Shown: positions 14,514 through 59,298 of the stretch, one piece after another
How the letters are laid out: each line of letters starts with the position of its first letter
Position numbering within the stretch: position 1 is the first letter of the stretch
Assembly: GCF_001046635.1 (NCBI RefSeq)
Contig: NZ_KQ130453.1
Coordinates: 563,001-627,000, forward strand
Length of the DNA: 64,000 bases
Origin: Novosphingobium barchaimii LL02
GTDB taxonomy: Bacteria > Pseudomonadota > Alphaproteobacteria > Sphingomonadales > Sphingomonadaceae
Direction: 5' to 3'
The notes under the pieces: model-generated
Told to the model about the DNA's origin: nothing
What the model saw: only the letters and a program-made list of their open reading frames with translations
The model's database searches: none
Program-made: the position numbers and the translations under genes

Positions 14514-14560
14514 CATATCGGGGGTAAACCAAGAAAAAACAGTAATTTACCCCGAATATG
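14514..14560. promoter_or_regulatory. Large inverted repeat upstream of second TonB receptor
   Basis: Arms CATATCGGGGGTAAA (14514-14528) and TTTACCCCGAATATG (14546-14560) pair at 13 of 15 positions across a 17-base A-rich spacer. The element lies about 120 bases upstream of the receptor start. It could be an operator for a dimeric regulator with widely spaced half-sites or a leader-RNA hairpin. No T-tract follows, so a terminator is less likely. Confidence 0.45.
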
Positions 14561-14678
14561 AGATGAACATGAAGACCTGGTGACGACGGTGTCTTCAAAC
14601 CTAAATCTAACTGTCTTGTTGTTGCCATAACAGCGCCCTTGCAGAGCAAAAATGTTTCTAAAAGGGTGCGTTTTCATC

Positions 14679-17168: not shown

Positions 17169-17292
17169 CCGCTTTCCCCCCGCCGCCAGTCCTGTTCACA
17201 GGGCCGGCGGTCCCGGAAATGCGATCGATGCGGAGAAATGGTCCCTTTCGATGGGGGAACAGTTCAGGTCGCCGCAGGATCGCAAAACTGAT

Positions 17293-17327
17293 CGGCGTGA
17301 CGCTCCCCCGCGTCACGCCGTTTTTTT
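17293..17327 (+). terminator. Intrinsic terminator after second TonB receptor
   Basis: Perfect 11-base stem CGGCGTGACGC/GCGTCACGCCG (17293-17303 and 17310-17320) with a TCCCCC loop and an immediate run of seven T. It ends 3 bases before the stop of the convergent histidine kinase gene. On the opposite strand the hairpin is followed a few bases later by TTTT, so it may be bidirectional. Confidence 0.9.
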
Positions 17328-17330
17328 GCT

Positions 17331-18671: not shown

Positions 18672-19345
18672 GCCCGTAATTGGTAGCCGATCCCGCGCAC
18701 GGTTCCGATCGGATCGTCACCATGTTGGATCAACTTCGCCCGCAGATGCTTGACGTGGGAATCGATGATATTGGTGGTCGGCACGAAATCATGACCCCAA
18801 ATACGCTCTATCAGCATCGCCCGCGTGACGACTTGCCCGTCCGCGCGCGCCAGTTCGAGGAGCAGGTTGAATTCGGTGCGTGACAGGTTGAGCGCCTGTC
18901 CTCCACGCCAGGCGAGCACTCGCGAGGGGCTGACGAGGATATCGCCCGCGCTCACGGTATCGGTCGGCTGTTCCGTAACGCGGCGGGCGCGCAACAGGGC
19001 GTGCAGTCGGGCGTTCAGTTCGAGGGCGTCCACCGGCTTGACGACATAGTCGTCGGCCCCGGCCTCGAAACCTTCGAGCTTGTCTGGAATCTGGCCCAGC
19101 GCGGTCAGCATGAGGACCGGCACGTTCATGCCGCTTTCACGCAGCTGGCGCAGCAGCTCGATGCCGTCGAGATGGGGCAGCATCCAGTCAAGGATCACAA
19201 TGTCGAAGGCATGCTGGCCAAGCAGCACCAGGGCTTTGCGCCCGTCGTCTGCGGCCTGAACCTCGTGTCCGAACTGGATAAGCTGGGCGACGAGCTGGCG
19301 TTGAAGCTGGCGATCATCCTCGACCAGAAGAATATGCAGGCTCAT
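18668..19345 (-). CDS. OmpR/PhoB-family response regulator
   Basis: A 225-residue regulator. The receiver domain starts MSLHILLVEDDRQL, with phospho-acceptor Asp53 (VILDWMLP), Thr81 and Lys103 (VVKPVD). A C-terminal winged helix (about residues 130-225) contains LNLSRTEFNLLLELARADGQVVTR and ends VRGIGYQLRA. The start at 19345 places the receiver domain at the N-terminus; six further codons upstream are possible. It forms an operon with the following kinase (4-base overlap). Confidence 0.95.
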   Translation of the reverse strand: MSLHILLVEDDRQLQRQLVAQLIQFGHEVQAADDGRKALVLLGQHAFDIVILDWMLPHLDGIELLRQLRESGMNVPVLMLTALGQIPDKLEGFEAGADDYVVKPVDALELNARLHALLRARRVTEQPTDTVSAGDILVSPSRVLAWRGGQALNLSRTEFNLLLELARADGQVVTRAMLIERIWGHDFVPTTNIIDSHVKHLRAKLIQHGDDPIGTVRGIGYQLRA

Positions 19346-36558: not shown

Positions 36559-36573
36559 ACATTGGGGGCACCA

Positions 36574-38076
36574 ATGACGGCGCTATCATCCGATCCTCAC
36601 AGTCTCGGTAACGGCGATGGTGTCCTGCGAGAAAGCGGGCTTCCCGACGGTCGGGCCTGGTCGATACCGATACAGTGCATGCAAGGCGCTGTACGCTTCA
36701 TCGATATAGGTCTCATCGTCGCAGCCAGTTTGCTCGCAGGGGAGGTGCTGGGGCACTACGAAGGACAAATGCAGACGCTTCGCCTCGATCGAATCGGGGT
36801 GGTGTCTAGCGCTCTCTTCGCGGTAATAGCCCAACTCGTTGGGGCTTACGAACTTCAGGCTCATCTTTCGGCGGGTCGGTCGGTAATGCGGGCATTGAAT
36901 GCCTGGGCAGGGGTAACGCTATTCGTTCTTGGTCTTAGTGCCGCTTTGCTTGGCAGGATGCCGCTTGCTGCGGGCGATATCTATATCTGGTCTATCGCTT
37001 GCGGCAGTGCTCTAGCGCTGGGCCGGATCGGCATGGCTACGGCAATGACGGGCCTGCGGCGGCGCGGGGTGTTCGATCAACGCAGTGCCGTGATCGGAAC
37101 CGGGCAACAAGCGGCTGAACTGGTTCGTTATATAACGCAGCACAAGCTACTGACGCTTTCACTCACGGGCTTTTACTGTGACGATGAATCCGAACCTCTC
37201 GATTTCCAGACCATGCCGCAGGGCGGCGCGTTGCCCTATCGCGGCAACATTACTGCCTTGCTGACGGCGATCCGCCTTGGGGCGATTGACCGGGTCATCA
37301 TCGCATTGCCGCAGGGGCAGGAAAACCGGGCCCGCGCGATCGTGGCCCGCTTGTCGGATACTCCGGTCGAAATTCGCCTGGCGCCTGCAAGCGGCGGCTT
37401 TTCCTGGACGCAGAATGCCGTGACGGTGCTGGGCGAGTGGCCTGTCCTCACATTGCTGGACTGGCCGCTTTCACGCGGGCAGCGCCTGCTCAAGGCAACG
37501 GAAGATCGTTTGCTTTCAATGTTGGCACTGATCCTGCTGGCGCCGCTGATGCTGATCGTCGCGATCGCCATCAAGCTGGATTCGCCGGGGCCGGTGCTGT
37601 TCCGGCAGAAGCGGCAGGGCTATAACTGCCGCGACTTTGAAATCCTGAAATTCCGCACCATGCAGGTCTCTGGGGACGCGGATGCCGTGGTGCAGGCGCG
37701 GCGAAACGACCCGCGCGTCACTGCCGTTGGCGCTATCCTCCGGCGGACCAGCCTGGACGAACTGCCGCAGTTGCTCAATGTTCTGCTGGGCCATATGTCG
37801 ATGGTGGGGCCGAGGCCTCATGCCGTATCGACCCGCGCCGCCGGCCGCCTGTTCGGAGAGATATCGCAGTCCTACCCAGCGCGGCATAACGTGAAGCCTG
37901 GCATGACAGGCTGGGCGCAAGTCTGCGGTTGGCGCGGCGAAACGCATAGCGAGGAGCAACTGCTCCGTCGTCTGGAACATGACCTTTACTACGTGCGCAA
38001 CTGGTCAATCTGGTTCGATCTGCGTATCCTGGCGCAGACGGTCGTGACGGTGCTGCGCCAGCAGAACGCATACTGA
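36574..38076 (+). CDS. Polyprenyl-phosphate sugar-1-phosphate transferase (WcaJ/GumD-like)
   Basis: A 500-residue initiating enzyme of EPS synthesis. It has four or five N-terminal membrane helices (to about residue 155), a CoA-binding-like Rossmann domain (about 165-290), then a membrane helix ([18 protein letters not shown]) and the bacterial sugar transferase domain. That domain shows [24 protein letters not shown]-like [36 protein letters not shown] and [20 protein letters not shown]. It puts a sugar-1-phosphate (often glucose) on undecaprenyl phosphate in the inner membrane. It follows the LuxR-type gene closely, while its partners in the pathway lie beyond the NRPS/PKS block. Confidence 0.94.
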
Positions 38077-38106: not shown

Positions 38107-38802
38107 TTAGGCGCGTCGATCCTCATGATCGATGGTGCGCGCCCATGCGGCGGTGTAGCCGTTCAGTGGCGGGCAGCAGCCCACCTCCAGAACGATCTGC
38201 CCATCCATGCGCACTGGCCTGCGCCCTTTAAGGCCTGAATGGATTTGCGCCGCCGGCATGGTCAATCCATGCCCCAGCGCTTTCAGGCACGCTTCCTTGC
38301 GGGTCCAGCCCTGAAGAAAGCCGGTGCCATGCCTAAAGTGTGGCGGCAGCGAGGACAGCGCCAGTTGCTCTCTTGGATGAAAGTGCAGGGCGCTCAATTC
38401 GTCGGCATCGGGAATGGGTCGGTCGCATTCGATATCGACACCGACTGCGCTGTCGCAGTCGATCCCCATCAGTGCTACGTCGCCCGCATAGCTGAGACTG
38501 AAATGACAGTCTGCTGGCTCTGTGAGTTGAGGTTTGCCGTCGGGCCCTGGAACGAAGCGCTGCCGGTGCGGAGCGAGGCCGCAATATTCCTTCAGCACCA
38601 GCCGCAGGGCGATGTGCGCGTTGAGATAGCGTTCCCGGTTGCGCGAGAACGCGAAGCGGGCTGCGCGGCCGCGCTCCTCCTGTGAGAGCCAGGCGATGCC
38701 CTCGGCTGGCGGCGGGCCGGATAAGTCCAGCAGCCACAGCTCCAATGGTACGTCGCCCACCAGCGGACGGGCTAGGGACGAAAGGTTGAGAGCGCCAACC
38801 AC
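38107..38802 (-). CDS. 4'-phosphopantetheinyl transferase (Sfp type)
   Basis: A 231-residue Sfp-type enzyme. Key motifs are FSLSYAGDVALMGI, VGVDIECDRP (Mg2+-binding Asp/Glu) and WTRKEACLKALGHGL. It transfers the phosphopantetheine arm of CoA to carrier-domain serines, here presumably Ser1486 of the NRPS and the ACP serine of the PKS. The start is a GTG at 38802, 6 bases after the stop of the upstream glycosyltransferase; a longer frame would overlap that gene by over 100 bases. It is the last gene of the biosynthetic operon, supporting a functional NRPS/PKS. Confidence 0.92.
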   Translation of the reverse strand: MVGALNLSSLARPLVGDVPLELWLLDLSGPPPAEGIAWLSQEERGRAARFAFSRNRERYLNAHIALRLVLKEYCGLAPHRQRFVPGPDGKPQLTEPADCHFSLSYAGDVALMGIDCDSAVGVDIECDRPIPDADELSALHFHPREQLALSSLPPHFRHGTGFLQGWTRKEACLKALGHGLTMPAAQIHSGLKGRRPVRMDGQIVLEVGCCPPLNGYTAAWARTIDHEDRRA

Positions 38803-38807
38803 CGCCT

Positions 38808-39797
38808 TCAGGCCCGCACAGGCAAGGCTTGTGCGTCGTTGAACAACGCGGATCGTGCGATGAAGTCCCGCAGTAGAAACGGAACTACCGTGTCTTTTCG
38901 CGATCGCATACGGCGCAGCAAACGCCACCACACATGCCCCGCCAGCCAGGCGACGTCCGCGATGATGGCATAACCCTTGCCGTGGTTAACGATGAAATAG
39001 CGGCGGCGGGAATCGAACCAGTAACGCGGAATACGGGAGTCCTGATTGTCCTTTAGCCCTGTGCTCTGGCCAGCAATGTGCATGACCACCGCCGAGGGAA
39101 GATACCAGCAACTCCAGCCCTGCTGCAGCGCCTTTCGGCAGAAGTCGGTTTCTTCGTAATAGAGGAAATATCCCTCATCCATCAGGCCAGCGGCATAGAG
39201 CGTTGCGCGCCGGACCACCATGCTGGCGCCCGATACGGAATCGACCTGTTCGGGGGCGGTTCCCATGACTTTGGCCACGCAATGGTCTCGCAGGAGTTTA
39301 GTGAGCGGCCCGAAGGAGGCGCCGCGTTCCAGTTCACTCAGGATGGACGGAAAGCGGAAGGCGAAAGGCCATGGCATTTCATTGCCGTAGAGCAGCAGGT
39401 TCCCGGCAATTCCTACAGTCGGGTTGGCCTCGAAAAAATCGAGGAAGGTCTTCAAGGCGCCGGGATGCACCCGGGTATCGGGGTTCAGCAGCCAGAAAAG
39501 GTCAGGCGCCGCTGCATCGCCAAGCGCTGCTCTGATCGCAAAGTTGTTGCCGGCCGCAAACCCGCCATTGACGGGAGATCGCATCAGGCTGGCCCAGCCC
39601 GACCAGTCCCGCGTTTTAATCGCTGTTTCAATCGTGTCTGCCGAACCGTCACGCGAATCGTTGTCCACCACCACAACGCGGGTGCCGGGGTAGGCGGCAA
39701 CTTCGCTCTCCAGACTGGCCAGGCAGTCGACGACCAGATTTCCGGTTCGATAGTTCACGATTACGACCATCAGGGTCGGCCGCTGCTGGTGTTCCAT
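38808..39797 (-). CDS. Glycosyltransferase family 2
   Basis: A 329-residue cytosolic GT-A enzyme. TLMVVIVNYRTGNLVVDCLASLE starts the nucleotide-binding fold, VVVVDNDSRDGSAD follows, and FWLLNPDTRVHPGAL gives the metal-binding DxD region. GYFLYYEETDFCRKA is a typical rhamnosyltransferase/WbbL-like block. GGGGA 9 bases before the ATG at 39797 favours this start over one at 39812. It begins 20 bases after the PKS stop. A sugar-transferring enzyme within the NRPS/PKS operon suggests that the product is glycosylated or that the cluster is mixed with the EPS genes. Confidence 0.9.
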   Translation of the reverse strand: MEHQQRPTLMVVIVNYRTGNLVVDCLASLESEVAAYPGTRVVVVDNDSRDGSADTIETAIKTRDWSGWASLMRSPVNGGFAAGNNFAIRAALGDAAAPDLFWLLNPDTRVHPGALKTFLDFFEANPTVGIAGNLLLYGNEMPWPFAFRFPSILSELERGASFGPLTKLLRDHCVAKVMGTAPEQVDSVSGASMVVRRATLYAAGLMDEGYFLYYEETDFCRKALQQGWSCWYLPSAVVMHIAGQSTGLKDNQDSRIPRYWFDSRRRYFIVNHGKGYAIIADVAWLAGHVWWRLLRRMRSRKDTVVPFLLRDFIARSALFNDAQALPVRA

Positions 39798-39816
39798 GAG
39801 GGCGTTCCCCATTATA

Positions 39817-46326
<6,510 letters not shown>

Positions 46327-46342
46327 GCCTTGTCTCACCCCG

Positions 46343-49300
46343 TTATCGTGTTGCCAGCGGCGCCCGAATGCTGCGGCGCCGGTCGAGTGCCGCGCGCCGT
46401 TCCGCCGCCCGCGCCTGACCTTCGATCACCGCCGCATTGCCTTCCGCGCCTCCCGACAAATGCGCGCTAAGCGTCTGGACGGTGGGAAAGCGGAAGATGT
46501 CGGTCAGCGGCAGCGGCCGGTCGAGTGCGGCGCGCAGTTGGCGGTGCACTTGAACCGCCAGCAGCGAATGCCCGCCGATGTCGAAGAAATTGTCACGGGT
46601 GCCGACCTTGTCCAGCTTGAGCACCTCACGCCAGATGGTCGCCACTCGCTCTTCCATGGCGTCTCCCGGCGCGACATAGTCGCCGCCGGGAGAAATCGCG
46701 CCGCTCTGCGGGGCAGGCAGCGCACCGCGATCGACCTTGCCGTTGGGCGTGCGGGGCAGAGCCCGCATTTCCATGAACAGGGCCGGCACCATGAACTCCG
46801 GGAGATGTACGCGCATATGGTCGCGCAGTACGTCGACAGGGGTATTGGCAACGTTTGCTGGTACATAATACCCGACCAGCCGGACATCCCCCGGAGTGTC
46901 CTCCCTGGCGGAGACAATCGCTTGCTCCACTTCGGGGTGACTGCTGAGCACCGCCTCGATCTCTCCCAGTTCGATGCGATAGCCCCGTATCTTGATCTGG
47001 TGATCCAGCCTTCCCAGGAATTCGAGCGTACCGTCGCTGCGCTGCCGCGCGAGGTCGCCGGTACGATAGGCCCGCGCACCGGGGCGGAAGGGGTGGGCGA
47101 TGAACCGCTCAGCCGTCAGTTCCGGCCGGAACAGGTAGCCGCGCACCACGCCCTCGCCGCCGATCACCAGTTCACCCGGAATGCCCGGCGGGCAGGGCTG
47201 CTGGCGGCTGTCGAGGATGAAGACCTGCTGATTGGCGAGCGGCCGCCCCAACGGCACCGCGCCGGGCGCCCCGTCCAGTTTGTGGACGGCGGACCAGATG
47301 GTGGTCTCCGTCGGCCCGTACATGTTCATGACCGATGTACCGGCCAGCGCGTAAAGATCGTGTGCGAGGGAGGGCGGGAAGGCTTCGCCGCCGATCATCA
47401 GGCGCTGCAGCTTCGCCAGTTGCGCCCGGGCGGCATCGTCGGCAACCAGCATGTGCGCCATCGAAGGGGTGCACTGGAGATGGGTAACCTCATGCCTGGC
47501 CATCAGCGTGGGCAGCGTGGCCGACTGGACCGTGGGGCCCGGGTTCGCCATCTGCCGCAGCGCGTCGAGCGCGGGCAGGTGGTCCAGAACCTCTTTCACC
47601 GGCAGGCCGAAATCGATCAAACAGCCGATCTCGTCGATCCCCGCTGCCCGCACCCGTGCGACCATCGCCAGGCAGTCCTGCGGGGTGCCGAACAGGCCGC
47701 TGGTGTCGTAATAGCGGTCGAACGCATATTCCAGGAGAGCGTCCATCTCCGCCTCGGTGACGCTGGAGAGGTCGGCGTGGGCGCTCGATTCCTCCATGCC
47801 GGGGCGGCGCTTGAAGGCCGGGAACGACCAGGCGAACTTCTTCACCAGATCGGTCGAAGTACGCAAGTACGCGATCATCGGCCCGCGCACCGCCTCGCGT
47901 ACGGCATCGGCATCGTTGCCGACGAAGCTGTGTAGCATCAGCGTGACATGACCCTCGCCGGGATGGCCTGCGGCTTTCCATGCCTCGCGGTAGCGGGCGA
48001 CCTTGGCCGCCATTTCCTCCACCGTCTGGCCCAGCAGATGGGTGAGGACGAAGGTGCCCGCCGTACCTGCCGACACGAAAGTATCGACGTTGCCTGCCGA
48101 GGTGATCCACACTGGAAGCTCGCGCTGGACCGGGCGCGGGTAGATCGCCGTTTCCACGTCCTTGCCAAGCGGACCGGGGAAAGGCCGCGTCTCACCCCGC
48201 CACAAGGCGCGCACCGTATCGATGCCGCGCATCATTACGGCGTTGCGATCGGCGAAGTTCTCAGGGTTCAGCACGAAGTCGTTGGGCTGCCATCCGGCGG
48301 CAAAGGAGATTCCGACGCGGCCTTGTGAAAGGTTGTCGACCAGCGACCATTCCTCGGCCACGCGGATCGGATGGTGCAACGGCAGGACCACACTGCCACC
48401 CCTGATCTGCACGTTGCTGGTGATCGCGGCAATCGCCGCGCTGGCAACCGAAGGGTTGGGGTATAGACCGCCGAACGCATGGAAATGCCGCTCCGGCGTC
48501 CAGACGGCGGTAAAGCCGTGATTGTCCGCGAATTTCGCACCTTCCAGCAGCAGGCGATACTGGTCGGCAGCGCTGCTGGCATCGGCGCTGGGGAAGTAGA
48601 ACAGGCTGAACTCGATCGGCGTCTGTACCGCGGCGATTGCCGGGGCAGCTTTGATATCGTCGTTCGTGGCAAGGACGACGTGGAAGCCCGTGGTGAGCGT
48701 CCAGCACAGTTCCAGCACCGAGATATCGAAGCTGAGGCTGGTCACCGCCAGCCATGTGCCGGGGGCCTCCAGCTTGCGGTCCATGCCCGCGAAAAAGTTC
48801 ACCGCATTGCGGTGCTCCACCATGACACCCTTGGGCTTGCCGGTGGAGCCCGAGGTGTAGATCACATAGGCCAGGTTCTCCGGCCCGGCGAGCGCCGGAA
48901 CCAGGTCGCTGGAACGCTCTGCGATGAAGGGCCAATCTCCGTCGAGGCACAAGATCGTCGCGTCGGTCGGCGGCAGGGCGTGGACCAGAGCGCTGTCGGT
49001 GACGATGATCGACGCGCGGGAATCCGCGATCATGTAGGCGATCCGGTCGGGCGGATAGCTAGGGTCAAGCGGCACGTAAGCACCGCCTGCCTTGTGGATC
49101 GCCACCAAAGCAACGACGAGGTCGACCGAACGGTCTGCGTTCAGGCCTACCAACACGTCGGGGCCGACGCCAAGCGCACGCAGTTGATGCGCAAGCTGGT
49201 TGGACCGGGCATCAAGCTCGGCATACGTCAGCGTCCGGTCGCGGCAGGTTACCGCCGGGGCATCTGGGGTGCGGGCCACCTGCTGCGCGAAGAGGTCATG

Positions 49301-51022
49301 GATACATAAGTCCCGGCGGATTTCCACGTCGGTCGCATTCCAGTCCTCGACCACGCGGCGCAGTTGATCCGGCGCCAGCAGCGGCAGTTCGCCTACCGGA
49401 CGGTCGGGATCGGCATCGGCGCCGGCCAGCAATGCCAGGAAGGCGGCCTGCATCGTCTCGATGGCCTCTGTGTCGAGGCGGCGAGGATCGTGGAACCAGC
49501 GGCAGGCGCTGCCGTCCGAGAGGAGGGCGATGGTAAGGTCTGCGGCCGGGCGGGCGACTGCCTTGTCAAGGTCCTCGACCAGAAGGATCGCGACGGGCAA
49601 GGTGGAGGGGTCTTCAGCGCCGCTGCCCCGCAGTTCGGGACTGCGTGCGAACAGGTCTGCGGCATGGCCGATCCGTCGGCGAATCTGGCGGATTTCAGTG
49701 CAGAGCGCTTCGCGAAGATGCGACATGCCGGAAGAGAAATCGATGTCGATACCCAGCGGCAACTGGGGCGAGAACCATGCCTCCAGCCCGCCGTACTGGC
49801 TCGTCAGGATCGGGTCGCTATAGCCCAGGTCGTATCGGGGCTTGTCGGTAATGCGGCCAAGGCAAGCGACCAGCGCCGCCAGCACGGCGCGCTCCCGCGC
49901 GGGGGTAGCGATTTCGCTACCAGGGACCGCAAGGTCGCAGTGGACCATCTCTGGCGCAGCGTCCGCCTGGCTGCGATCGACATGCGGGAGCAGAAGCGGC
50001 TCGCGGCGGGCAAGCCGTTTGCGCCACCAGGGTTCGAAACTGCCGACGGCGGAATTCAGCGTCGACAGGTCCGCACGCTGCTGCAGGTTCGGATTTTCCA
50101 GCCGTGCACCGGGTTGCAGGCCATGTTCGCCGGGACGGCAGGGCAGGCCGCCGCAAGTGCTGATCGCGCCGATCCGCAAGTCATGGGTGGCGGTAGCCAC
50201 GACCAGTTCTTCGCCCTGGATCGAGACGATGGTGCCTGCGGGCAGTCCCGAGCAGGCAGGCTGGATCGAAGCCTTGCCGACCAGCAGCACCTGTCCGTCA
50301 ATACTGAGCTTCGGCGAGCCAAGCGGATTGGCATAGCTGCCATGGTCGAGAGCCCTCACGACCCGCGCAATCGCTTGGGCATCGCCATTCCAGTCGATCA
50401 TCCCGGCCCCGGCGGGCCGGGCGGTCAGGCCATAGAGCTGGCCTGGCGCATTGTCCTGTCGGCGTGGTTTGATCGTGTCGGTTTCCAGGCCCATAATCAA
50501 TGCGTCGAAGCTGTCGAGCGCGGTGATGAAGCACTTGGTGTTAACCGAAAGCGCGCTGTCTTCGGCGTCGAGGTCAACCGCGCGGGTCAGCAACAAGTCG
50601 CCCGCGTCGATGTCTGCCGTCATCAGGTGCCAACTGATTCCATGCCGGGTTTCGCCGTTGAGCAGCGCCCAGACTGGGGTATTCAGTCCGGCATAACCGG
50701 GCAGCACGCCGTCATGGAAGTTGATCGCGGCGCGGAGCGGCAAGGACACGATTTCCGCCGGCAAACGGCGCAGGTTGGTGATGCTGAACAGGTAATCAAA
50801 GGCGGGTAGGCCCGCATCGATCAGCGCCGACGGCGTTTCCAGCACCGGTATGAACTCCCGACCCGCCCAGTCGAGGATCGGGGTCTGGTCGCTGACGATC
50901 GCGACGATGTCATGCCCGCGATCCCGGAGCTTTGCAGCACATTCGATGAGCAGTCTTTCCGAGCCGATGAGGACGCAGCGCGATTTCATGCCCATCCCCG
51001 ATGCGGGGCCGGCGAATGTCAT
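46343..51022 (-). CDS. NRPS: formyltransferase - degenerate C - A (with luciferase-like monooxygenase) - PCP
   Basis: 1559 residues. Residues 13-300 are a formyltransferase of the Fmt/LgrA type with INFHDGVLPGYAG (Asn101, His103) and Asp139 (ADIDAGD). Residues about 320-560 look like a condensation domain remnant, since no HHxxxDG is present. The A domain starts near 575 (LTYAELDARSNQLA), with A3 YTSGSTGKPKG at about 722, A4 SFDISVLE and then an inserted luciferase-like FMN monooxygenase (about 803-1140, MupA/Atu3671-type). It resumes at HLQCTPSMAHML and ends with the A10 lysine (PNGKV, K1429). PCP Ser1486 is in DIGGHSLL. A likely role is to load, formylate and perhaps oxidise one amino acid for the PKS. 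Its ATG overlaps the preceding gene's stop; ATG 50989 is an alternative start. Confidence 0.92.
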   Translation of the reverse strand: MTFAGPASGMGMKSRCVLIGSERLLIECAAKLRDRGHDIVAIVSDQTPILDWAGREFIPVLETPSALIDAGLPAFDYLFSITNLRRLPAEIVSLPLRAAINFHDGVLPGYAGLNTPVWALLNGETRHGISWHLMTADIDAGDLLLTRAVDLDAEDSALSVNTKCFITALDSFDALIMGLETDTIKPRRQDNAPGQLYGLTARPAGAGMIDWNGDAQAIARVVRALDHGSYANPLGSPKLSIDGQVLLVGKASIQPACSGLPAGTIVSIQGEELVVATATHDLRIGAISTCGGLPCRPGEHGLQPGARLENPNLQQRADLSTLNSAVGSFEPWWRKRLARREPLLLPHVDRSQADAAPEMVHCDLAVPGSEIATPARERAVLAALVACLGRITDKPRYDLGYSDPILTSQYGGLEAWFSPQLPLGIDIDFSSGMSHLREALCTEIRQIRRRIGHAADLFARSPELRGSGAEDPSTLPVAILLVEDLDKAVARPAADLTIALLSDGSACRWFHDPRRLDTEAIETMQAAFLALLAGADADPDRPVGELPLLAPDQLRRVVEDWNATDVEIRRDLCIHDLFAQQVARTPDAPAVTCRDRTLTYAELDARSNQLAHQLRALGVGPDVLVGLNADRSVDLVVALVAIHKAGGAYVPLDPSYPPDRIAYMIADSRASIIVTDSALVHALPPTDATILCLDGDWPFIAERSSDLVPALAGPENLAYVIYTSGSTGKPKGVMVEHRNAVNFFAGMDRKLEAPGTWLAVTSLSFDISVLELCWTLTTGFHVVLATNDDIKAAPAIAAVQTPIEFSLFYFPSADASSAADQYRLLLEGAKFADNHGFTAVWTPERHFHAFGGLYPNPSVASAAIAAITSNVQIRGGSVVLPLHHPIRVAEEWSLVDNLSQGRVGISFAAGWQPNDFVLNPENFADRNAVMMRGIDTVRALWRGETRPFPGPLGKDVETAIYPRPVQRELPVWITSAGNVDTFVSAGTAGTFVLTHLLGQTVEEMAAKVARYREAWKAAGHPGEGHVTLMLHSFVGNDADAVREAVRGPMIAYLRTSTDLVKKFAWSFPAFKRRPGMEESSAHADLSSVTEAEMDALLEYAFDRYYDTSGLFGTPQDCLAMVARVRAAGIDEIGCLIDFGLPVKEVLDHLPALDALRQMANPGPTVQSATLPTLMARHEVTHLQCTPSMAHMLVADDAARAQLAKLQRLMIGGEAFPPSLAHDLYALAGTSVMNMYGPTETTIWSAVHKLDGAPGAVPLGRPLANQQVFILDSRQQPCPPGIPGELVIGGEGVVRGYLFRPELTAERFIAHPFRPGARAYRTGDLARQRSDGTLEFLGRLDHQIKIRGYRIELGEIEAVLSSHPEVEQAIVSAREDTPGDVRLVGYYVPANVANTPVDVLRDHMRVHLPEFMVPALFMEMRALPRTPNGKVDRGALPAPQSGAISPGGDYVAPGDAMEERVATIWREVLKLDKVGTRDNFFDIGGHSLLAVQVHRQLRAALDRPLPLTDIFRFPTVQTLSAHLSGGAEGNAAVIEGQARAAERRAALDRRRSIRAPLATR

Positions 51023-51321
51023 GAAAACACCACCGGTACGGAGCGACGACGCGAAGCCGGGACGCCAACCACGAGCGCGCCGAGAAGCAGCATCGCCAGC
51101 ATCCAGGTGTCGACGTTCCAGTCCGGCCCTGCTGCTACCGGGGGACAGGCCCCCTGCGGCAACAGCAGGGGGGTATCACCTTCGCGTGCAGCCTGGACAT
51201 GGCCGGCCGCTACGTCGACAGTGCAATGTGCATCGCCGCCGGTGGGATGTCCGGCGGCGTTCGCCGGGGAACTTGCCATCAAGGCAACGGAAATCAGAAA
51301 ACTGGAAACAATGAGACGCAT
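51019..51321 (-). CDS. Small secreted or membrane-anchored protein, unknown
   Basis: 100 residues. Signal peptide MRLIVSSFLISVALMASSPA (cleavage about NAA), a short extracytoplasmic part with two Cys and GACPPVAAGPD, then WNVDTWMLAMLLLGALVVGV and a basic end (ASRRRS). The C-terminal span plus arginines is like a sorting anchor (as in CTERM proteins), though no named motif is matched exactly. GGAGGGG 4 bases before the ATG gives a very strong ribosome-binding site. Its stop overlaps the NRPS start by 4 bases (ATGA), so it heads the NRPS/PKS operon, and the 287-base region upstream (51322-51608) holds the promoter. Confidence 0.7.
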   Translation of the reverse strand: MRLIVSSFLISVALMASSPANAAGHPTGGDAHCTVDVAAGHVQAAREGDTPLLLPQGACPPVAAGPDWNVDTWMLAMLLLGALVVGVPASRRRSVPVVFS

Positions 51322-51608: not shown

Positions 51609-52772
51609 TCAAGGCTTGCGACTGGTGCGCACCCAGAGGGTCTGCCTGGCACCGGCAAGGCGGCGATAGATCGGCAATTTCCACAGGACGTATCGGGGCA
51701 GTTGCCGCGCCATCGCAGCCGGCAGTATTTCGCGCCCTAAGCGGAACCAAACGAGCATCAGCGCCGCCGTCGCCGCCGCGCCTGACCCCAACAGCGCGAG
51801 CAGTGGTGCAAAGGTGCCGGTGAATATCGCGATCAACGCCAGCAGCGCGCAGATCGGCACCATCATGCTGGCGAGCAGCGCAAGCGGCGGTACGGCAATG
51901 TCTGCTGCCAGCACCAGCAGGGCGGGACGCCCGCGAAGGGAAGCGGCTATCAGGCGGGGCACGTACTGGGCCATGGTCGTGACCGAGCCATGCTCCCAGC
52001 GGGTGCGTTGGCCTTGGGTGGCGCTCTCCGCGCTTGCACTGCTCGTAAAGACGGCCAGCGGATCGAATTTCACCTGACGTCCAGCCAGCCTGAGGTCGAG
52101 CCCCAGCTTGAGATCCTCCACCAGCGAGGCCGTTTCCAGCGGCGCGGCGTTGAACATCGGCCAAGGAAAGGCCATGCCCGTACCTTGCAGCAGGGCACCG
52201 CCGCCAAGGCGTTGCAGGCCAGTCTGGCGCACCAGATTCTTGACGAGGAAGGCAAAGATGGAAAACCGCACCAGCGGTGTCGCGTCTGGTGCTCCGGTCA
52301 GGAGATAGCATCCCTGCACGGCCGCGCTCTTGCCCGCCGCATGCGCAGCGAGGCGGGGCAAGGCGCCCCTTGTGGGCAGGCAATCGGCATCCAGGACAAT
52401 GATGATCGGGGTCGGCTGCAGACGCAGCGCTTCACGCCCGTAGGCAAGGGCATAAGCCTTGCCGCGCAGATCGGGGTCATTGCGCTCCACCACCTCGGCG
52501 CCGCAGGCCTTGGCCATGGCGGCGGTGCCGTCGGTGCAGTTGTCAGCTACCACCAGCACCCTGTCGCAGAGCCGCAGTTGCAGGCGCACCGCGCGTATCA
52601 CGGCGGCGATGCCGGTTACTTCATCATGCGCCGGTATCAGTACGGTGAATGGAGGGGGCAAAATATAGGGTGCTTTTACCGAAGGCGAGGCCCCTAGCAG
52701 GCATTCCACCGCCAGCATGAGCAGCGGAATTCCGACAATGGCGACCAGCACCCAGCAGAGAATATCGATCAT
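51609..52772 (-). CDS. Membrane GT2 glycosyltransferase (cellulose-synthase-like)
   Basis: 387 residues. An N-terminal membrane helix (MIDILCWVLVAIVGIPLLML), then FTVLIPAHDEVTGI, VLVVADNCTDGTA, DADCLPT (DxD) and QGQRTRWEHGS, a QxxRW-type product-binding motif, followed by about three helices (to residue 345). The pattern is that of processive or membrane-linked GT2 enzymes (ICAA/BcsA-like), working at the inner-membrane cytosolic face on a lipid-linked acceptor. It starts 4 bases after the previous gene stop, so the two are coupled. The sugar specificity is unknown. Confidence 0.9.
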   Translation of the reverse strand: MIDILCWVLVAIVGIPLLMLAVECLLGASPSVKAPYILPPPFTVLIPAHDEVTGIAAVIRAVRLQLRLCDRVLVVADNCTDGTAAMAKACGAEVVERNDPDLRGKAYALAYGREALRLQPTPIIIVLDADCLPTRGALPRLAAHAAGKSAAVQGCYLLTGAPDATPLVRFSIFAFLVKNLVRQTGLQRLGGGALLQGTGMAFPWPMFNAAPLETASLVEDLKLGLDLRLAGRQVKFDPLAVFTSSASAESATQGQRTRWEHGSVTTMAQYVPRLIAASLRGRPALLVLAADIAVPPLALLASMMVPICALLALIAIFTGTFAPLLALLGSGAAATAALMLVWFRLGREILPAAMARQLPRYVLWKLPIYRRLAGARQTLWVRTSRKP

Positions 52773-52775
52773 ATC

Positions 52776-54185
52776 CTAAGCCAACGGACGCAGGAGATCA
52801 GCCAGGTCCGGCACGTTCTCATCAATGTCATGCCCGGCCCGGACGCGTTGACGGCCCAACTCTCCCATTGCGCGCAGTTGTTCGCTTGGCGCTTCCAGGG
52901 CGGCGATTATGGTGTCGGCCAGCGCGGTGACCGAGCCTGCCGGGATGACCCATCCAGTATCGCGGTCGACCAGTTCCGGGATGCCGCTGATCGCAGTGGC
53001 GATCACCGGCCGCCCCATCGCCAGCGCTTCCATTATGACCACGGGTAAGCCCTCGGCGAAACTGGGCAAGACCAGTGCGCGCGAGGCGAGTAGTTCACGC
53101 CAGATGCTCCGGGGATCGAGCCAGCCGCTCAAGGTGACGACATCCTCCAACTCGCGGGCCCTGATCTGATCTTCCAGCTCTGCGCGCATCGGCCCGTCAC
53201 CGATGATGTTGAGGCGGAACACATGCGTCTGCGCCACGATGGCGGCCGCCTCGATCAGCAGCATGATACCTTTTTGCGGACTGAGCCGCGCAACGCAGAC
53301 CAGGCAATTGTCGGTCAGCCCGGTATCGACGATCGGCGTCACCGCGTGCATGAACAGGGGATCGCTGCCGCAGCGTACCACCGCGATCTTCGACCAGTCC
53401 CTGGGTGCCGACCAGCGCATGATCTGACTGCGTCCGAATGCGCTGATGGCAACCACGAAGCGGGCGTCGGCGACTTTCTCGCCGATTTCATGGCTTTCGG
53501 GCGCGTCGAATTCGTCAGGCCCGTGCATCGTAAGGCTATAGCTAAGTTGACCGAGACGGCTGGCGATGCGGGCCACCGTTGCGGGATTGGTGCCGAAATG
53601 AACATGCACGTGACGGATGCCCGCCCGATCCATCCGGTCGGCGAGACGACATGCTTCCAGGAAGTAGGCGGCACATCTTACAATGCCCCGGCTGCTGCGG
53701 CGATATGTCGCCGCAGTCACCGACAATCCGCGAAGGAAAGCACGCGGCTGCCGGACAAGCCTGGTCATGGCGGACCACAGCATCCCCACTACGTTACCGT
53801 CCAGCAGCGTCGTTGTATGCGCGCGCTCGTCCTCGTCGGTCGGGTCAGCGAACACGTCGGGCGACGCGCGGATGGTCATCCGGATGACGTCAAAATCCAT
53901 GCGCTCGAGAGCCAGTATCTCGTTGCGGATGAAACTATGGCTGATCTTGGGATATACGTTCGTCAGATAGGCCACGCGGGTCCTGCAAGGTCCGGCCGAC
54001 TCAGGGGCGGGCCGGCCACAAAGCGGCTCCTCGCCGGCAACACGGGTCATTCCGGAAACCCTTGCAGCGACGCGGCCGGGGTGGGATGTCGAAACTGAAG
54101 GCGCAAGGGCATGCTCTTCCTCTTCACGTGGCGCGGCGCGCGCGGTCTTTCGATCATACTGCCGTGCTGCGCTGCGGGATAACAT
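52776..54185 (-). CDS. Glycosyltransferase family 4
   Basis: Up to 469 residues. GT-B fold: RVAYLTNVYPKISHSFIRNEILAL, HVHVHFGTNPA, then the C-terminal donor half with LVCVARLSPQKGIMLL, IIGDGPMRAELE and LPSFAEGLPVVIMEALAMGRPVIAT, ending with the EX7E-like region. The start is uncertain: the ATG at 54185 has AAGG upstream, but the conserved part begins after an ATG at 54050 and the intervening residues look weak. It is the first gene of the minus-strand EPS/biosynthetic run, divergent from another glycosyltransferase gene (54355) across about 170 bases that must hold two promoters. Confidence 0.88.
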   Translation of the reverse strand: MLSRSAARQYDRKTARAAPREEEEHALAPSVSTSHPGRVAARVSGMTRVAGEEPLCGRPAPESAGPCRTRVAYLTNVYPKISHSFIRNEILALERMDFDVIRMTIRASPDVFADPTDEDERAHTTTLLDGNVVGMLWSAMTRLVRQPRAFLRGLSVTAATYRRSSRGIVRCAAYFLEACRLADRMDRAGIRHVHVHFGTNPATVARIASRLGQLSYSLTMHGPDEFDAPESHEIGEKVADARFVVAISAFGRSQIMRWSAPRDWSKIAVVRCGSDPLFMHAVTPIVDTGLTDNCLVCVARLSPQKGIMLLIEAAAIVAQTHVFRLNIIGDGPMRAELEDQIRARELEDVVTLSGWLDPRSIWRELLASRALVLPSFAEGLPVVIMEALAMGRPVIATAISGIPELVDRDTGWVIPAGSVTALADTIIAALEAPSEQLRAMGELGRQRVRAGHDIDENVPDLADLLRPLA

Positions 54186-54354
54186 CCAACCTTATCGCCC
54201 CTTGAAAGCCAGTGGTGTCCTTCCCCCTTCCGATATTGGCCAACGTAGATCGTAGACTGTGGTGCAGCCCGGATGACGGATAGCGTGGGGCTGCCGACGC
54301 CGCCGGGCCAGTAGTGCCGTGATGGCGCGTGCCGAGGGTCTGGCGGAGACGAAC

Positions 54355-55674
54355 ATGCGGATCTTGCTGGTTGCCGAAAATATCTCTCTGCGGCTGAGCG
54401 GAGAAACCCTGCTCCCCTGCTGCTATTTCGAGCAGTTCGTCGCGGGAGGCGAGGATGTGCATCTGCTTTGTCACGAGCGGGTTCGTGAAGACCTGCGGGC
54501 TGATCTTCCCCCCGACCAGTTCGCGCGCGTCCGCTTCGTGAAGGACAGGCCGCTGCAGAACTTTTTGTTCCGGCTGGGGCGGCGGTTTCCGTACCGCGTC
54601 GAGGACCTGGTCTTCAACCAGCTGATCCAGATCGTTACCCAGTGGCACATGCGCGGCATCGCCCGCGACATGGTGCGCAAATTCGATATCGACGTGGTGT
54701 TCCAGCCGGCTCCCATCGCGGCAACGGCGGTCAGCTTCATGCACGGGCTGGGCGCGCCGGTGGTCATCGGCCCGATGAGCGGGGGCATGAACCTGCCGCC
54801 TGCATTCCGGCGCATGGACGGCCCCGTGGTGCGCCTTTCCATCGCCGCAGCCCGCTTCGGCTCCGCCGCGCTGCACCGTCTGTTTCCCGGGAAGCTGCGC
54901 GCCGCCGCATTGATCGTCGCCAACGAGCAGACCCGCGCCGCCTTGCCCGGTGGCATTCGCGGCAAAGTCCACGAAGTGATGGAAAGCGCGGTCGACCTCG
55001 AACGCTGGGTTCAGCGCCCGGTCACAGAAAAGGCCGCGAACGAGCCCACGTCCTTCATCTTCTGCAGCCGCTTCGTCGACTGGAAGGGCATTCGCCTGCT
55101 GGTCAGCGCCTTCGCTCCGCTGGCACGGTCGGGCAACAGCATGTTGCATCTGGTCGGTGATGGCGAACTGTTCGAGGAGATCCGCGAACAGGTGCGTCGC
55201 GAGGGGCTTACCCGCAAGGTTATTCTGCACGGCCGCGTCGACCGTGATCGCTATCAGGAAATGCTGCGAGAAACGGACGTTTACGTCACTCCGTCGCTAC
55301 GCGAATGCGGCGGCATGGCGATGATGGAGGCCATGGCGGTGGGACTGCCAGTGATCGGCATCGACTGGGGCGGGGCCGCGCAATATGCTGCGCCCGATTG
55401 TGCGCTGCTGGTGAAGCCGACATCCGAGCAGGCGGTGATAGACGGCCTTACCGCCGCCATGGCGCGCATGGCCGCATCACCCGAACTGCGCCGCTCGATG
55501 GGCGACGCCGCGCGACATCATCTTGAACAGGCGGGGCACGGCTGGGCCGACAAGGCGCGGGCTGTGCTTGGCGTACTGAAGGAAGCCGCCGAAGGTTCGG
55601 GCCGCATTTGCGCCCGCCCCAAAACAACCAGCGAGGCCCTGGCCGCCTCGTCTTCATTACAGGTGGCCCGCTGA
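54355..55674 (+). CDS. Glycosyltransferase family 4
   Basis: 439 residues. The N-terminal half begins MRILLVAENISLRLSGETLL and has GAPVVIGPMSGGMNLPPAFRRM. The donor half has FIFCSRFVDWKGIRLL, LVGDGELFEEIREQV, VTPSLRECGGMAMMEAMAVGLPV. GGAG 8 bases before the ATG at 54355 fixes the start; a longer frame is unsupported. The GPMSGGMNLPP block is shared with the glycosyltransferase at 60806-62167 (GPLNGGLPWP), so the two are paralogues. It is the first gene of the plus-strand EPS operon (next gene 1 base later). Confidence 0.9.
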   Translation: MRILLVAENISLRLSGETLLPCCYFEQFVAGGEDVHLLCHERVREDLRADLPPDQFARVRFVKDRPLQNFLFRLGRRFPYRVEDLVFNQLIQIVTQWHMRGIARDMVRKFDIDVVFQPAPIAATAVSFMHGLGAPVVIGPMSGGMNLPPAFRRMDGPVVRLSIAAARFGSAALHRLFPGKLRAAALIVANEQTRAALPGGIRGKVHEVMESAVDLERWVQRPVTEKAANEPTSFIFCSRFVDWKGIRLLVSAFAPLARSGNSMLHLVGDGELFEEIREQVRREGLTRKVILHGRVDRDRYQEMLRETDVYVTPSLRECGGMAMMEAMAVGLPVIGIDWGGAAQYAAPDCALLVKPTSEQAVIDGLTAAMARMAASPELRRSMGDAARHHLEQAGHGWADKARAVLGVLKEAAEGSGRICARPKTTSEALAASSSLQVAR

Positions 55675-55675
55675 C

Positions 55676-56812
55676 ATGGCGACGAAAGCAATGGACCCCG
55701 CCGTCGACATCATCTTCTACACCCGCCAGCTACACAACGGCGGGGTCGACAGGGTGGTGTTCAACCTCGCGGGCGAATTCCTGCGGCGAGGCATCAAGTC
55801 TTCGATCGTGGTGGATGTCGACAACCCCCATTCGCCGTTTCGCACGCTTATCCCCGAGGGGATCGGCTATGATGTATTGGAGGCCCGGGGGCCGATCGCG
55901 CGGCTGTTCAAGCTGCGCAGTTATCTGCGCAAATCCCGACCAAGCGCGGTCATGTGCGCCAGTTTCGGCTTCCCCAATCTTTATGCCATCGTCGTGCGCT
56001 GGATTTCAGGCCTGCGGTTTCACCTGATGCTGACCGAGCATTGCTTCCCCTCTGTCGACCGCGCGGGCCCCAAGCCGTGGCAGTCGCGCTACTGGTTCTT
56101 CCCGCTGGCGCACTACCTTTACCCTTTTGCCGATCGCATCGTCGCGGTTTCTAAAGGCACGGCGCTGGATCTTGCCAAAGTGATCGGCATCGACCCGAAA
56201 AGCATCTCCTGCATCTACAACCCGCTCGTCAGCGACGGGCTGATCGAACAGGCGAAGCAGCCCGTCGACCACCCCTGGTTCGCGGACGACACGGTGCCGA
56301 TCGTCATCGGCGTGGGACGGCTGGAGCCGCAGAAGAACTTCTCGCTGCTCATCCGCGCGTTCGCACGAGTACGCGCGCAGATGCCAGCCAGGTTAGTGAT
56401 CCTGGGCGACGGATCGGAACGCGACATGCTGCGAAACCTCGTCGCCGACATGGACCTGGGGGGGGACGTTGCGTTGCTGGGTTTTGTGCCGAACCCCCAC
56501 GCCTATGTCGCCAAAGCCGATCTGATGGTCCTCTCGTCCGATTTCGAGAGCCTTGCCAATGTCGTGATCGAGGCGCTGGCGGTGGGCACGCCCGTGATCG
56601 CCACCGATTGCCCATCCGGCCCGGCCGAGGCGCTGAACCATGGCCAATGCGGCACGCTGGTTCCCGTGGGCGACCTCGACCGGATGAGCACGGCGATACT
56701 GGAAGCCCTACGCGAAAGACCCGCGCCGATCGCGAGGGACTGGCTGGACCAGTTCAGCGAACGCGAAGTCGCGGATAGGTATCTTGATCTGCTTGCGCTG
56801 GATGCGAGGTGA
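55676..56812 (+). CDS. Glycosyltransferase family 4
   Basis: 378 residues. Starts with IIFYTRQLHNGGVDRVVFNLAGEF (typical GT4 N-terminal GG loop). The donor half contains VIGVGRLEPQKNFSLLIRAF, RLVILGDGSERDMLRNLV, ALLGFVPNPHAYVAKADLMVLSSDFESLANVVIEALAVGTPVIATDCPSGPAE with a final EALNHGQCGTLVPVGD. Shares the usual retaining GT-B layout. It is separated by 1 base from the preceding gene and 3 bases from the following one, so translation is coupled. Confidence 0.92.
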   Translation: MATKAMDPAVDIIFYTRQLHNGGVDRVVFNLAGEFLRRGIKSSIVVDVDNPHSPFRTLIPEGIGYDVLEARGPIARLFKLRSYLRKSRPSAVMCASFGFPNLYAIVVRWISGLRFHLMLTEHCFPSVDRAGPKPWQSRYWFFPLAHYLYPFADRIVAVSKGTALDLAKVIGIDPKSISCIYNPLVSDGLIEQAKQPVDHPWFADDTVPIVIGVGRLEPQKNFSLLIRAFARVRAQMPARLVILGDGSERDMLRNLVADMDLGGDVALLGFVPNPHAYVAKADLMVLSSDFESLANVVIEALAVGTPVIATDCPSGPAEALNHGQCGTLVPVGDLDRMSTAILEALRERPAPIARDWLDQFSEREVADRYLDLLALDAR

Positions 56813-56815
56813 TGG

Positions 56816-57967
56816 GTGGACGCGCCGCGGCCGAATTCCTGCCCCACGTCACCCGCTCTGGCCCAGCTGACGGGGCTCCGATTTGTGGCGGCCTTTGCGG
56901 TCCTGCTTTCGCACCTCGAATTTCTTGGCGCCGATCCGGGATCGCCCGCCGCGTGGATCTACGAGACGCTTTTTCGCCAAGGCTACTGCGGGGTCTCGTT
57001 CTTCTACATCCTTTCCGGCTTCATCCTGAGCCATGCCTACGGAGCCAGGCTTGCTACCGGGAAGCCCCGGATGCGGTCATATTTCCTGTGGCGCGTCTGC
57101 CGTATCGCGCCGCTGCATTGGATCATGACGCTGTTCTTCCTCGCATGGCTGGCGACGGCGAAAGGCGCGGTGCCGGGACCGGGAACGATCGGGTTGAACT
57201 TCCTGCTACTGCACGCATGGTCGCCCGATACCACGGTTCACTACGCGCTAAACGGGCCGTCGTGGAGCCTTTCGGACGAGTTGTTCTTCTACGCCGCATT
57301 CCCATGGCTGAGCCGGGTGCCCACCCGGCTTCTGGCGCTGTGCCTCGTCCTTGGCCTGATGCTCGTCACCGCGCTCGCGGTTATGGCGATGATGTGGGAG
57401 CCGGTATATTCGCCAAGGCTGGAGTGGCTCTTCTACGTTGCCCCGCCTGTGAGGCTGGCCGATTTCGTAACCGGAATGCTGCTCTATCGTACCTGGCAGC
57501 AGGGCGGGGGACGGCGGTGGGCAGGGACTACGGCAGAACTATGCGTGACTTTGGCGATCCCGGCCGCGATGGTGGGGTTTTCGCTGCTCGCCTTGCCGAT
57601 GCCGCTCCGCTGGCAACTTGCCTATCTGCCGCTGATGGCCGCCGCGGTGCTGGTCTTCGCGCACGGCCGGGGCGCTATTTCGGTGCTCCTGCAGGGCCAC
57701 TGGCCTGTGCTGCTGGGGGAGGCTTCCTTCGCGCTTTACCTGACCCATCGGCCGCTGGTGACACTGGCGGCCCGGTTATGGGGCGGCGATCCGGCGTTTG
57801 CACCAGTGCTGGCAGCGATGTTGCCGCCGGTCTGCATCACGCTTTCGATAGTGATTTTCCTGCTTTTCGAAAGGCCTTTGCTGCGCCGTTTGCGGCGACG
57901 CCTGCGGCCAGGGGGAAAGACGAATGATCCGGCAGGGGGCGCGCTGAAAGCATGGCAACCGTCCTAG
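56816..57967 (+). CDS. Acyltransferase 3 family protein (EPS acetylation)
   Basis: 383 residues with about ten hydrophobic spans. The N-terminal LTGLRFVAAFAVLLSHLEFLG contains the RFxAAxxVxxxH pattern of the acyltransferase 3 family, and GVSFFYILSGFILSH is another conserved block. NGPSWSLSDELFFY is also family-typical. It would add an acetyl or similar group to a sugar in the lipid-linked repeat. The start is a GTG at 56816, three bases after the previous stop. Its 3' end overlaps the flippase start by 16 bases. Confidence 0.92.
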   Translation: MDAPRPNSCPTSPALAQLTGLRFVAAFAVLLSHLEFLGADPGSPAAWIYETLFRQGYCGVSFFYILSGFILSHAYGARLATGKPRMRSYFLWRVCRIAPLHWIMTLFFLAWLATAKGAVPGPGTIGLNFLLLHAWSPDTTVHYALNGPSWSLSDELFFYAAFPWLSRVPTRLLALCLVLGLMLVTALAVMAMMWEPVYSPRLEWLFYVAPPVRLADFVTGMLLYRTWQQGGGRRWAGTTAELCVTLAIPAAMVGFSLLALPMPLRWQLAYLPLMAAAVLVFAHGRGAISVLLQGHWPVLLGEASFALYLTHRPLVTLAARLWGGDPAFAPVLAAMLPPVCITLSIVIFLLFERPLLRRLRRRLRPGGKTNDPAGGALKAWQPS

Positions 57968-59298
57968 AACACCCGCCCTGGCGCCGTGCTATCCAGAGCG
58001 GCGTCAGCCTGGTGGTGATCACCATTGTCGCCTCCAACGTGCTGCGCATTGCCAGCACGCTCATCCTCACCCGCGTCCTTTCACCCGTCGATTTCGGCGT
58101 GGCGGGGCTGACCGGGGCGATCCTCAACATCTTGCTGATGATCTCCGACGTAGGCTTCGGGGTCTACATCGTCCGCCATGCCCAAGGTGACGATCCCAGG
58201 CTCCTCGACGTCATCTGGACGCTGCGCCTGCTGCGCGGAGCCGTGCTGACGCTGGCCATGATGGCCTGCGCCGAACCGCTCGCCTTACTCTTGGGCAAGC
58301 CGGCGCTGACCATCGCCATCGCGGTGACCGGCATCAATTTCGTGCTCGACGCATGTTCCTCGCTCGCCCCCTTCAGCGCTGTGCGGGAGGAGCGGCTGTT
58401 CATGCTCAGCATGCTCGATATCGCCAGCGCCGTCACCCAAACGGTGACGGGGATCGTGCTGGCCATCGCATTGCACAGCTACTGGGCGATCATCTTCGCC
58501 GGGCTGGTGGGCGCCACTATAAAGGCCGTGCTCAGCTACGCGCTGTTTCCCGGGTCCCTGCGCCGGTTCGCCTTCGACCGGCATGAGGTGGGCGAGTTAT
58601 GGCGTTTCGGGCGCACGATCGCGAGCGCAAATACAATTCAGGTGCTGCTTTCGAACGTGGACAAAATCGTGCTGTCCCGCATATTTCCGCTGTCGTTGTT
58701 CGGCCTATATTCGCTGGCCGCCAATTTGTCCGGCGTGGCTTCCGGCTTCACCTCGCTTTACCCAAGCCGCATCCTGCTGCCCGCCTTTGCTCGAGCGTAC
58801 CGCGAAGATCCCGGCTCGATGGCCCATGCCTATTACGAGAGCCGCCGCACGATGACGCTGCTGTACATGGTTGCCATGGGCGGTTTCATCAGCATGGCCC
58901 CCGCAGTCGTCAACTTGCTCTACGATCCCCGTTATCAGGCGGCGGCAACTTACCTGCAACTCCTCGCTCTGGCCCCTGCGATGGCGATGAACATCTATGC
59001 CGCGCGCGAAGTGCTTATCGTTGTCGGCAGGGTGCAGGCGCTGCTTTATGGCAATCTGGTGCGCCTGACCTGGCTGATCGTGGTCGGGACCTGCGCCTTC
59101 CTGGCCTTCGGGCCGATGGGGCTGGTCGGCGCGGTAGGATGCATTGAGGTGCCGGTGCAAGTCTACTGCTGGCACGAACTGCGCCGCGCCGGACTGTTCC
59201 GGGCAGGACAGGAAGCACTGATCATCAGCGCGCTGGCTTTCGGAGCAGTCCTTGGCCTCATCGGCGACAAGCTTTACTTCATGCTGATTGCTGGGTGA
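57952..59298 (+). CDS. wzx: Oligosaccharide flippase (Wzx-like, MOP superfamily)
   Basis: 448 residues and 12-14 hydrophobic spans. The N-terminal ASNVLRIASTLILTRVLSPVDFGVAGL block and RHAQGDDPRLLDVIWTLRLLRGAVLT are typical polysaccharide-biosynthesis flippase motifs, and later FSPRILLPAFARAYRE-like and VVNLLYDPRYQAAATYLQLLAL segments match the MOP family. It moves the lipid-linked repeat unit from the cytosolic to the periplasmic leaflet. It is the last gene of the plus-strand run, ending inside the 3' end of the convergent polymerase gene (20-base overlap). Confidence 0.92.
   Translation: MATVLEHPPWRRAIQSGVSLVVITIVASNVLRIASTLILTRVLSPVDFGVAGLTGAILNILLMISDVGFGVYIVRHAQGDDPRLLDVIWTLRLLRGAVLTLAMMACAEPLALLLGKPALTIAIAVTGINFVLDACSSLAPFSAVREERLFMLSMLDIASAVTQTVTGIVLAIALHSYWAIIFAGLVGATIKAVLSYALFPGSLRRFAFDRHEVGELWRFGRTIASANTIQVLLSNVDKIVLSRIFPLSLFGLYSLAANLSGVASGFTSLYPSRILLPAFARAYREDPGSMAHAYYESRRTMTLLYMVAMGGFISMAPAVVNLLYDPRYQAAATYLQLLALAPAMAMNIYAAREVLIVVGRVQALLYGNLVRLTWLIVVGTCAFLAFGPMGLVGAVGCIEVPVQVYCWHELRRAGLFRAGQEALIISALAFGAVLGLIGDKLYFMLIAG

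Follow-up and report, generated by a model that had tools for sequence, protein, structure and literature searches.

The window analyzed here, 64,000 nucleotides of Novosphingobium barchaimii LL02 DNA, encodes a loading protein in which a formyltransferase (F) domain precedes an adenylation (A) domain that is interrupted by a flavin monooxygenase of MupA/Atu3671 type (MOx). Which amino acid does this protein load, how is it modified, and what does the product serve in a locus where a PKS gene and polysaccharide genes lie side by side? Based on domain searches, comparison with relatives and gene context, the protein is, on balance, probably the formylating, oxidising glycine-loading module of a two-protein NRPS-PKS line serving polysaccharide synthesis.

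The loading protein

The open reading frame runs for 1559 codons from an ATG start without interruption, and the protein is genuine and intact. Between its end and the first base of the PKS gene lie 4 bases. Pfam matches were obtained to Formyl_trans_N (residues 84-163), Formyl_trans_C (207-291), AMP-binding in two stretches (the best 578-790), Bac_luciferase (805-1130), AMP-binding_C (1354-1429) and PP-binding (1458-1522), while residues 805-1156 scored 510.7 bits against TIGR04020 (MupA/Atu3671 monooxygenase), about twice the cut-off of 244.45. These profiles bear out the first-pass annotation, made from the sequence alone, in its description of an A domain interrupted by a luciferase-like monooxygenase and accompanied by one carrier. 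The insert lies between motifs A4 and A5 (these names, and the Stachelhaus positions used below, presumably follow the usual convention). Structure prediction, proposed as a check in that annotation, was carried out with AlphaFold, and both A halves form a single domain around the MOx.

The region between the F and A domains had been described as a degenerate condensation (C) domain devoid of HHxxxDG. The motif is indeed missing, but the region is a half domain rather than a degenerate one. Pfam gave no Condensation match in the loader, and by profile-profile comparison residues 318-566 correspond to columns 188-449 of the 449 C-domain columns (probability 98.6%, E 9e-16); reference C domains carry their conserved HH..D at columns 137-142, outside the aligned part. 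The loader has no full condensation domain with both lobes and HHxxxDG, its C-terminal lobe alone being aligned.

Table 1. Positions of the loading protein, its domains and neighboring genes in the window
Feature	Position	Strand	Basis or remark
WcaJ-type initiating sugar transferase	36562..38076	+	over NCBIfam cut-off
4'-Phosphopantetheinyl transferase (PPTase)	38107..38931	-	relative in 21/46 family loci
GT2 glycosyltransferase beside PKS	38808..39857	-	relative in 39/46 family loci
Partner PKS, KS-AT-KR-DH-ACP-TE	39817..46338	-	Pfam and alignment
Loader, F - half C - A[MOx]A - carrier, 1559 aa	46343..51022	-	ORF and Pfam/NCBIfam
Carrier (PCP) domain, residues 1455-1525	46448..46660	-	
A domain part two, residues 1168-1430	46733..47521	-	
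MupA/Atu3671-type MOx insert, residues 803-1157	47552..48616	-	
A domain part one, residues 575-790, stops after motif A4	48653..49300	-	
Condensation domain C-terminal lobe, residues 318-566	49325..50071	-	profile-profile comparison
F domain, residues 14-309	50096..50983	-	Pfam, structure comparison; NRPS-type
Small 100-aa protein	51019..51321	-	stop overlaps NRPS start
GT2 glycosyltransferase	51609..52772	-	Pfam
GT4-type glycosyltransferase	52776..54185	-	Pfam
GT4-type glycosyltransferase	54319..55674	+	
GT4-type glycosyltransferase	55676..56812	+	Pfam
Acyltransferase-3 protein	56816..57967	+	Pfam
Wzx-type polysaccharide flippase	57952..59298	+	Pfam
Wzy / O-antigen ligase family protein	59279..60802	-	
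GT4-type glycosyltransferase	60806..62167	-	

Relatives of the loading protein

A search for the same architecture, also suggested in the first-pass annotation, yielded a family of 59 distinct proteins which passed the score limits for F and for both A parts; a few are cut by contig ends, and the members do not count as separate lineages. The closest relative found, from Novosphingobium sp. 18050, is 94% identical over the full length. Members are spread over alpha- and betaproteobacteria and the phylum of Polyangium. In the last, 18 of 188 sampled genomes contained TIGR04020 above the limit, at 19 places, of which 16 were fetched and 14 of these encode the form with both F and MOx. Among 396 genomes of the order to which the Novosphingobium relative belongs, five carry the full form and one a form lacking the MOx. 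A pattern search of viral contigs gave no match. One member (L022) is on a contig labelled as a Chloroflexi MAG, where the profiles used revealed no sugar genes.

Five loci (L031, L036, L043, L184 and L185) with a MOx-split A domain and C domains gave no F match and were excluded. In two of them, from the phylum of Polyangium (L184, 7831-12183; L185, 6622-11082), a C domain replaces F before the split A domain, and L184 retains HHxxxDG.

The loss of F or MOx residues, named in the first-pass annotation as the finding that would speak against its reading, was not seen. The F domain residues Asn101, His103 and Asp139 noted there are present and conserved among relatives, the catalytic residues being kept in 58 of the 59 proteins, and the MOx is close to the solved MOx of PuwE (6KET; E 6.4e-116), with which it aligns over its length. 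The carrier serine is kept in 57 proteins, the other two being gapped at this position.

Affinities of the formyltransferase domain

A Streptomyces search with the F domain returned 16 NRPS-fused F domains at E ≤ 3e-41, the next match being at 9.1e-24. By these scores the domain groups with NRPS-fused F domains, and the sister proteins of the family are MOx-less Streptomyces F-A-T loaders. Fifteen of the 16 Streptomyces regions were read, and 13 of the 15 also encode the half C. Formylation of a carrier-bound amino acid by such a domain has its precedent in LgrA, according to the portion of PMC4504003 available. Among solved structures compared by fold and sequence, however, the closest were ArnA, WbkC and the methionyl-tRNA formyltransferases (Fmt), LgrA ranking lower; together with the sugar genes nearby this could mean that F formylates an amino sugar of the polysaccharide instead of carrier-bound glycine. 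Such a role is highly improbable, since in Streptomyces the NRPS-fused domains score far above standalone-sized proteins. The F-half C-A order is, moreover, common to the family and the Streptomyces loaders, and F is fused in all 59 family proteins, a set selected for F and A together.

Amino acid and oxidation

Read over both A parts, the specificity code of the loader is DILQMGMIWK, of glycine type, its positions having been located by motif and alignment, not structure superposition. The form DILQxGM[IV]W was found in 59 of 59 family proteins, and the accessible text of PMC12283262 gives DILQLGMIWK as common to four MOX glycine domains. Each of the 80 MOx-split A domains compared carried a glycine-type code, as did 16 of the 145 without a split, and sequences with the same first 180 residues in A part two were treated as one; the 41 split domains classed as "other" do not represent 41 non-family lines, because many are family members from short loci, and of two MOx-less family proteins L041 alone passed the spacing limits. 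Glycine is the predicted amino acid of the loader.

Formylation and oxidation of one carrier-bound amino acid before the PKS, as proposed in the first-pass annotation, is upheld as a prediction. For the oxidation, which had been left as alpha- or N-directed, our analysis best supports alpha-hydroxylation of carrier-bound glycine, in this protein formyl-glycine, which cleavage may or may not follow, since papers assign such chemistry to these domains. As far as the available sections go, PMC4219810 assigns formation of a 3-amino-2-hydroxy acyl chain to the PuwE aminotransferase and monooxygenase, and PMC10204066 assigns the alpha-hydroxyglycine of solanimycin B to a glycine module into which a flavin monooxygenase is integrated. 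Oxidation of nitrogen would lead to N-formyl-N-hydroxyglycine, a hydroxamate-type metal ligand, and a gene for a TonB-dependent receptor does lie about 18 kb away (25834-28128). We nevertheless consider this alternative of the first-pass annotation very unlikely, because the split A domains are uniformly of glycine type and carbon hydroxylation is what the parts of PMC4219810, PMC10204066 and PMC12283262 at hand assign to this domain type; the scanned neighbors, too, are polysaccharide and not siderophore genes.

Whether hydroxylation is followed by cleavage bears on the starter unit. A hemiaminal made by the MOx might collapse to formamide and a glyoxylyl thioester, in which case glyoxylyl would be the starter and formylation a mere trigger. 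The excerpts of PMC10204066 describe the same domain as hydroxylating glycine in myxothiazol and melithiazol, with cleavage following, and those of PMC12283262 describe MOX as cleaving the glycine backbone. Hydroxyglycine is, on the other hand, retained in solanimycin B (PMC10204066, same excerpts), and it would seem wasteful to make a formyl group and then discard it, so that a glyoxylyl starter appears unlikely, and an intact formyl-hydroxyglycyl unit is preferred.

The partner PKS and two lines lacking the MOx

The PKS of the window has a Cys-type TE (GLCAGG, residues 1932-1937). It was aligned with others to give 46 sequences: 42 from the family, two (L044, L048) from contigs that hold only part of the loader, and two non-family PKSs (L031, L036). 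Where the position was present, the KS cysteine was kept in 45 of 45, the ACP serine in 44 of 44, the AT serine in 43 of 45 (lost in L040 and L041) and the KR tyrosine in 43 of 45 (His in L031, Gln in L040; L041 is gapped). The DH histidine and aspartate were kept in all 42 PKSs with this domain, which is absent from L031, L036, L040 and L041. The TE nucleophile was Cys in 24, Ser in 18 and gapped in 4. Active-site residues are retained in the MOx-bearing lines wherever sequence is present, apart from the KR and DH of L031 and the DH of L036 noted above.

L040 and L041, both from Sphingomonas (L200 duplicates the L040 contig, judged by length and content), have no MOx, their A4-to-A5 distances being 56 and 38 residues, respectively, versus 417. 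In their PKSs (13533-18734 and 13455-18626, respectively) the AT serine is replaced by Asp, while the KS cysteine, ACP serine, TE cysteine and the F residues of the loaders are kept. In the tree the two are nested together among MOx-bearing sphingomonads, consistent with one change. The dN/dS values between them were 0.076 for KS, 0.18 for TE, 0.21-0.25 for A, 0.26 for AT, 0.35 for KR and 0.40 for F, which is less constrained in this pair, with a maximum of 0.50 in a linker. That they are pseudogenes was set aside, because dN/dS was below 1 in 12 of 12 parts measured; these ratios indicate lines which are reduced, not dead, and under purifying selection. A single lineage gave up both the MOx and PKS extension, and the MOx therefore appears tied to the next PKS step. 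Their joint loss also points to a less elaborate product in that lineage, perhaps N-formylglycine, and these natural insert-less relatives offer a ready control for the role of the MOx.

Polysaccharide context

The first-pass annotation overlooked the polysaccharide cluster (36562-62167) in which the PPTase, PKS and NRPS genes sit. It comprises a WcaJ-type transferase, two GT2 and four GT4-type glycosyltransferases, a Wzx-type flippase, a Wzy/ligase-type protein and an acyltransferase-3 protein, so that the initiating transferase, glycosyltransferases, flippase and Wzy-type protein of a Wzx/Wzy-type cluster occur together. The 100-aa protein beside the loader has a signal-like start and a hydrophobic C-terminal stretch followed by RRR; a crude motif scan of 48 loci found resembling ORFs in L005, L020, L025 and L040.

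At least 4 kb on both sides was available for 46 of the 59 family loci, the window included. Forty-three of these carry one or more relatives of GT2, GT4, WcaJ or Wzx, and the profiles detected no sugar gene within the fetched flanks of the other three (L007, L022, L186). A KS was present in 40 of the 46; the 14 loci of the Polyangium phylum include five (L186, L189, L192, L194, L197) with none inside the fetched flanks. With the same profiles a sugar gene was detected in 1 of 23 control NRPS loci (those of at least 15 kb among 29). Because the Pseudomonas control loci were filled by giant NRPS genes, two further controls were added: 20-kb stretches taken at even intervals from one sphingomonad and one Polyangium-phylum genome (2 of 20) and the Streptomyces F-loader regions (0 of 15). 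Counting against these comparisons, the profiles were iterated on family and NRPS loci together for three rounds (GT2a for one round) and were thereby trained in part on loci of the family itself.

Polysaccharide genes also surround the NRPS-PKS pair on annotated plasmids of Ruegeria, Paracoccus, Aminobacter, Shinella and Parasedimentitalea and, by profile, on two Rhizobiaceae plasmids, and Methylobacterium bullatum has two GT4 relatives. The Paracoccus polysaccharide region (L002) encodes a second adenylation-domain protein at 778-4656.

Since this place inside polysaccharide clusters recurs, decoration of a polymer is more likely than a free metabolite, although it is read from gene adjacency, which is not the same as covalent attachment. 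The product could instead be a small molecule that is secreted and acts as a signal, chelator or antibiotic; the GT2 may glycosylate it, and the linkage would then reflect a shared surface life. Linkage by itself is not function, the terminal thioesterase could merely hydrolyse the product, and three loci have no sugar gene. We regard a free molecule as rather unlikely, given that the link is repeated in distant lineages, far above three controls, and that the flippase is the sole transporter-like gene among the scanned genes of 36562-62167.

Proposed pathway

From the domains and their context we infer the following pathway. Its individual reactions are predictions, as are the sequence in which formylation and hydroxylation occur, the product and the acceptor. 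The split A domain would adenylate glycine and load it on the carrier, the F domain would formylate its amino group, and the MOx would hydroxylate the alpha-carbon of the bound formyl-glycine. The resulting N-formyl-alpha-hydroxyglycyl group would be handed to the PKS, which would add one extender, reduce it and dehydrate it, and the thioesterase would release or transfer a small acyl group. The formal product would be 4-formamido-4-hydroxybut-2-enoyl, or a lactone or collapse product with loss of formamide. The acceptor is most likely an exopolysaccharide sugar or lipid-linked unit, perhaps with participation of the neighboring GT2.

More tentatively, and with slightly less than even confidence, we suggest a widespread class of polysaccharide clusters whose own NRPS-PKS line attaches an acyl group derived from formyl-hydroxyglycine, the reduced Sphingomonas form attaching N-formylglycine. 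Recurrence in the clusters of distant bacteria suggests an unrecognised route of sugar-polymer decoration. If the link is causal, carrier-protein chemistry would place a non-sugar, possibly reactive group on exopolysaccharide, by a route spanning alpha- and betaproteobacteria and the relatives of Polyangium.

Comparison with known systems

The loader unites two rare assembly-line tricks, a formyl-glycine start and hydroxylation of glycine within the A domain. For the former, the available parts of PMC4504003 and PMC4979870 describe OzmO and CongA (oxazolomycin and conglobatin) as loaders with F and a glycine A domain feeding a PKS, and the loader described here likewise has F and a glycine-type A domain beside a PKS. 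The Streptomyces F-loader loci were taken to be of the OzmO/CongA kind. All 12 aligned Streptomyces loaders share the F residues and the glycine-type code with the family, while MOx and sugar genes are both absent from 15 of 15 regions. An ORF with the SGGKDS motif is present in 6 of the 15 regions versus 0 of 59 family loci. Oxazole formation as in conglobatin was set aside, because no SGGKDS-type cyclodehydratase motif was matched among ORFs of at least 120 aa in the window and the family loci within their flanks, beyond which the enzyme could lie.

The MOx modules of myxothiazol and melithiazol are those which we take to be MtaG and MelG. Their likeness to the loader, shared with SolF, is the MOx inside a glycine A domain, as described in the consulted portions of PMC10204066 and PMC12283262. 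In the former source a MOx of the SolF type acts on a residue joined to the upstream chain, whereas that of the family lies in an initiation module behind F. The open-access literature in PubMed Central yielded no description of a loader that starts with F and has a glycine A domain split by a MOx, or of the tie to polysaccharide, which may still be published, and no mention of Atu3671 by name.

LgrA of linear gramicidin resembles the loader in its F-A-carrier initiation module and in the fold of its A domain. It uses valine and feeds an NRPS, and to our knowledge has neither a MOx nor a half C between F and A. In DltA/DltC and AlmE/AlmF, an A domain and a carrier serve to add an amino acid to a glycopolymer or glycolipid of the cell surface; we know of no formylation, oxidation or PKS step in these systems. 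The individual parts are already known; among the formylating glycine loaders, to which the protein belongs, it stands out by joining an F start to a glycine A domain split by a MOx and by its tie to polysaccharide loci.
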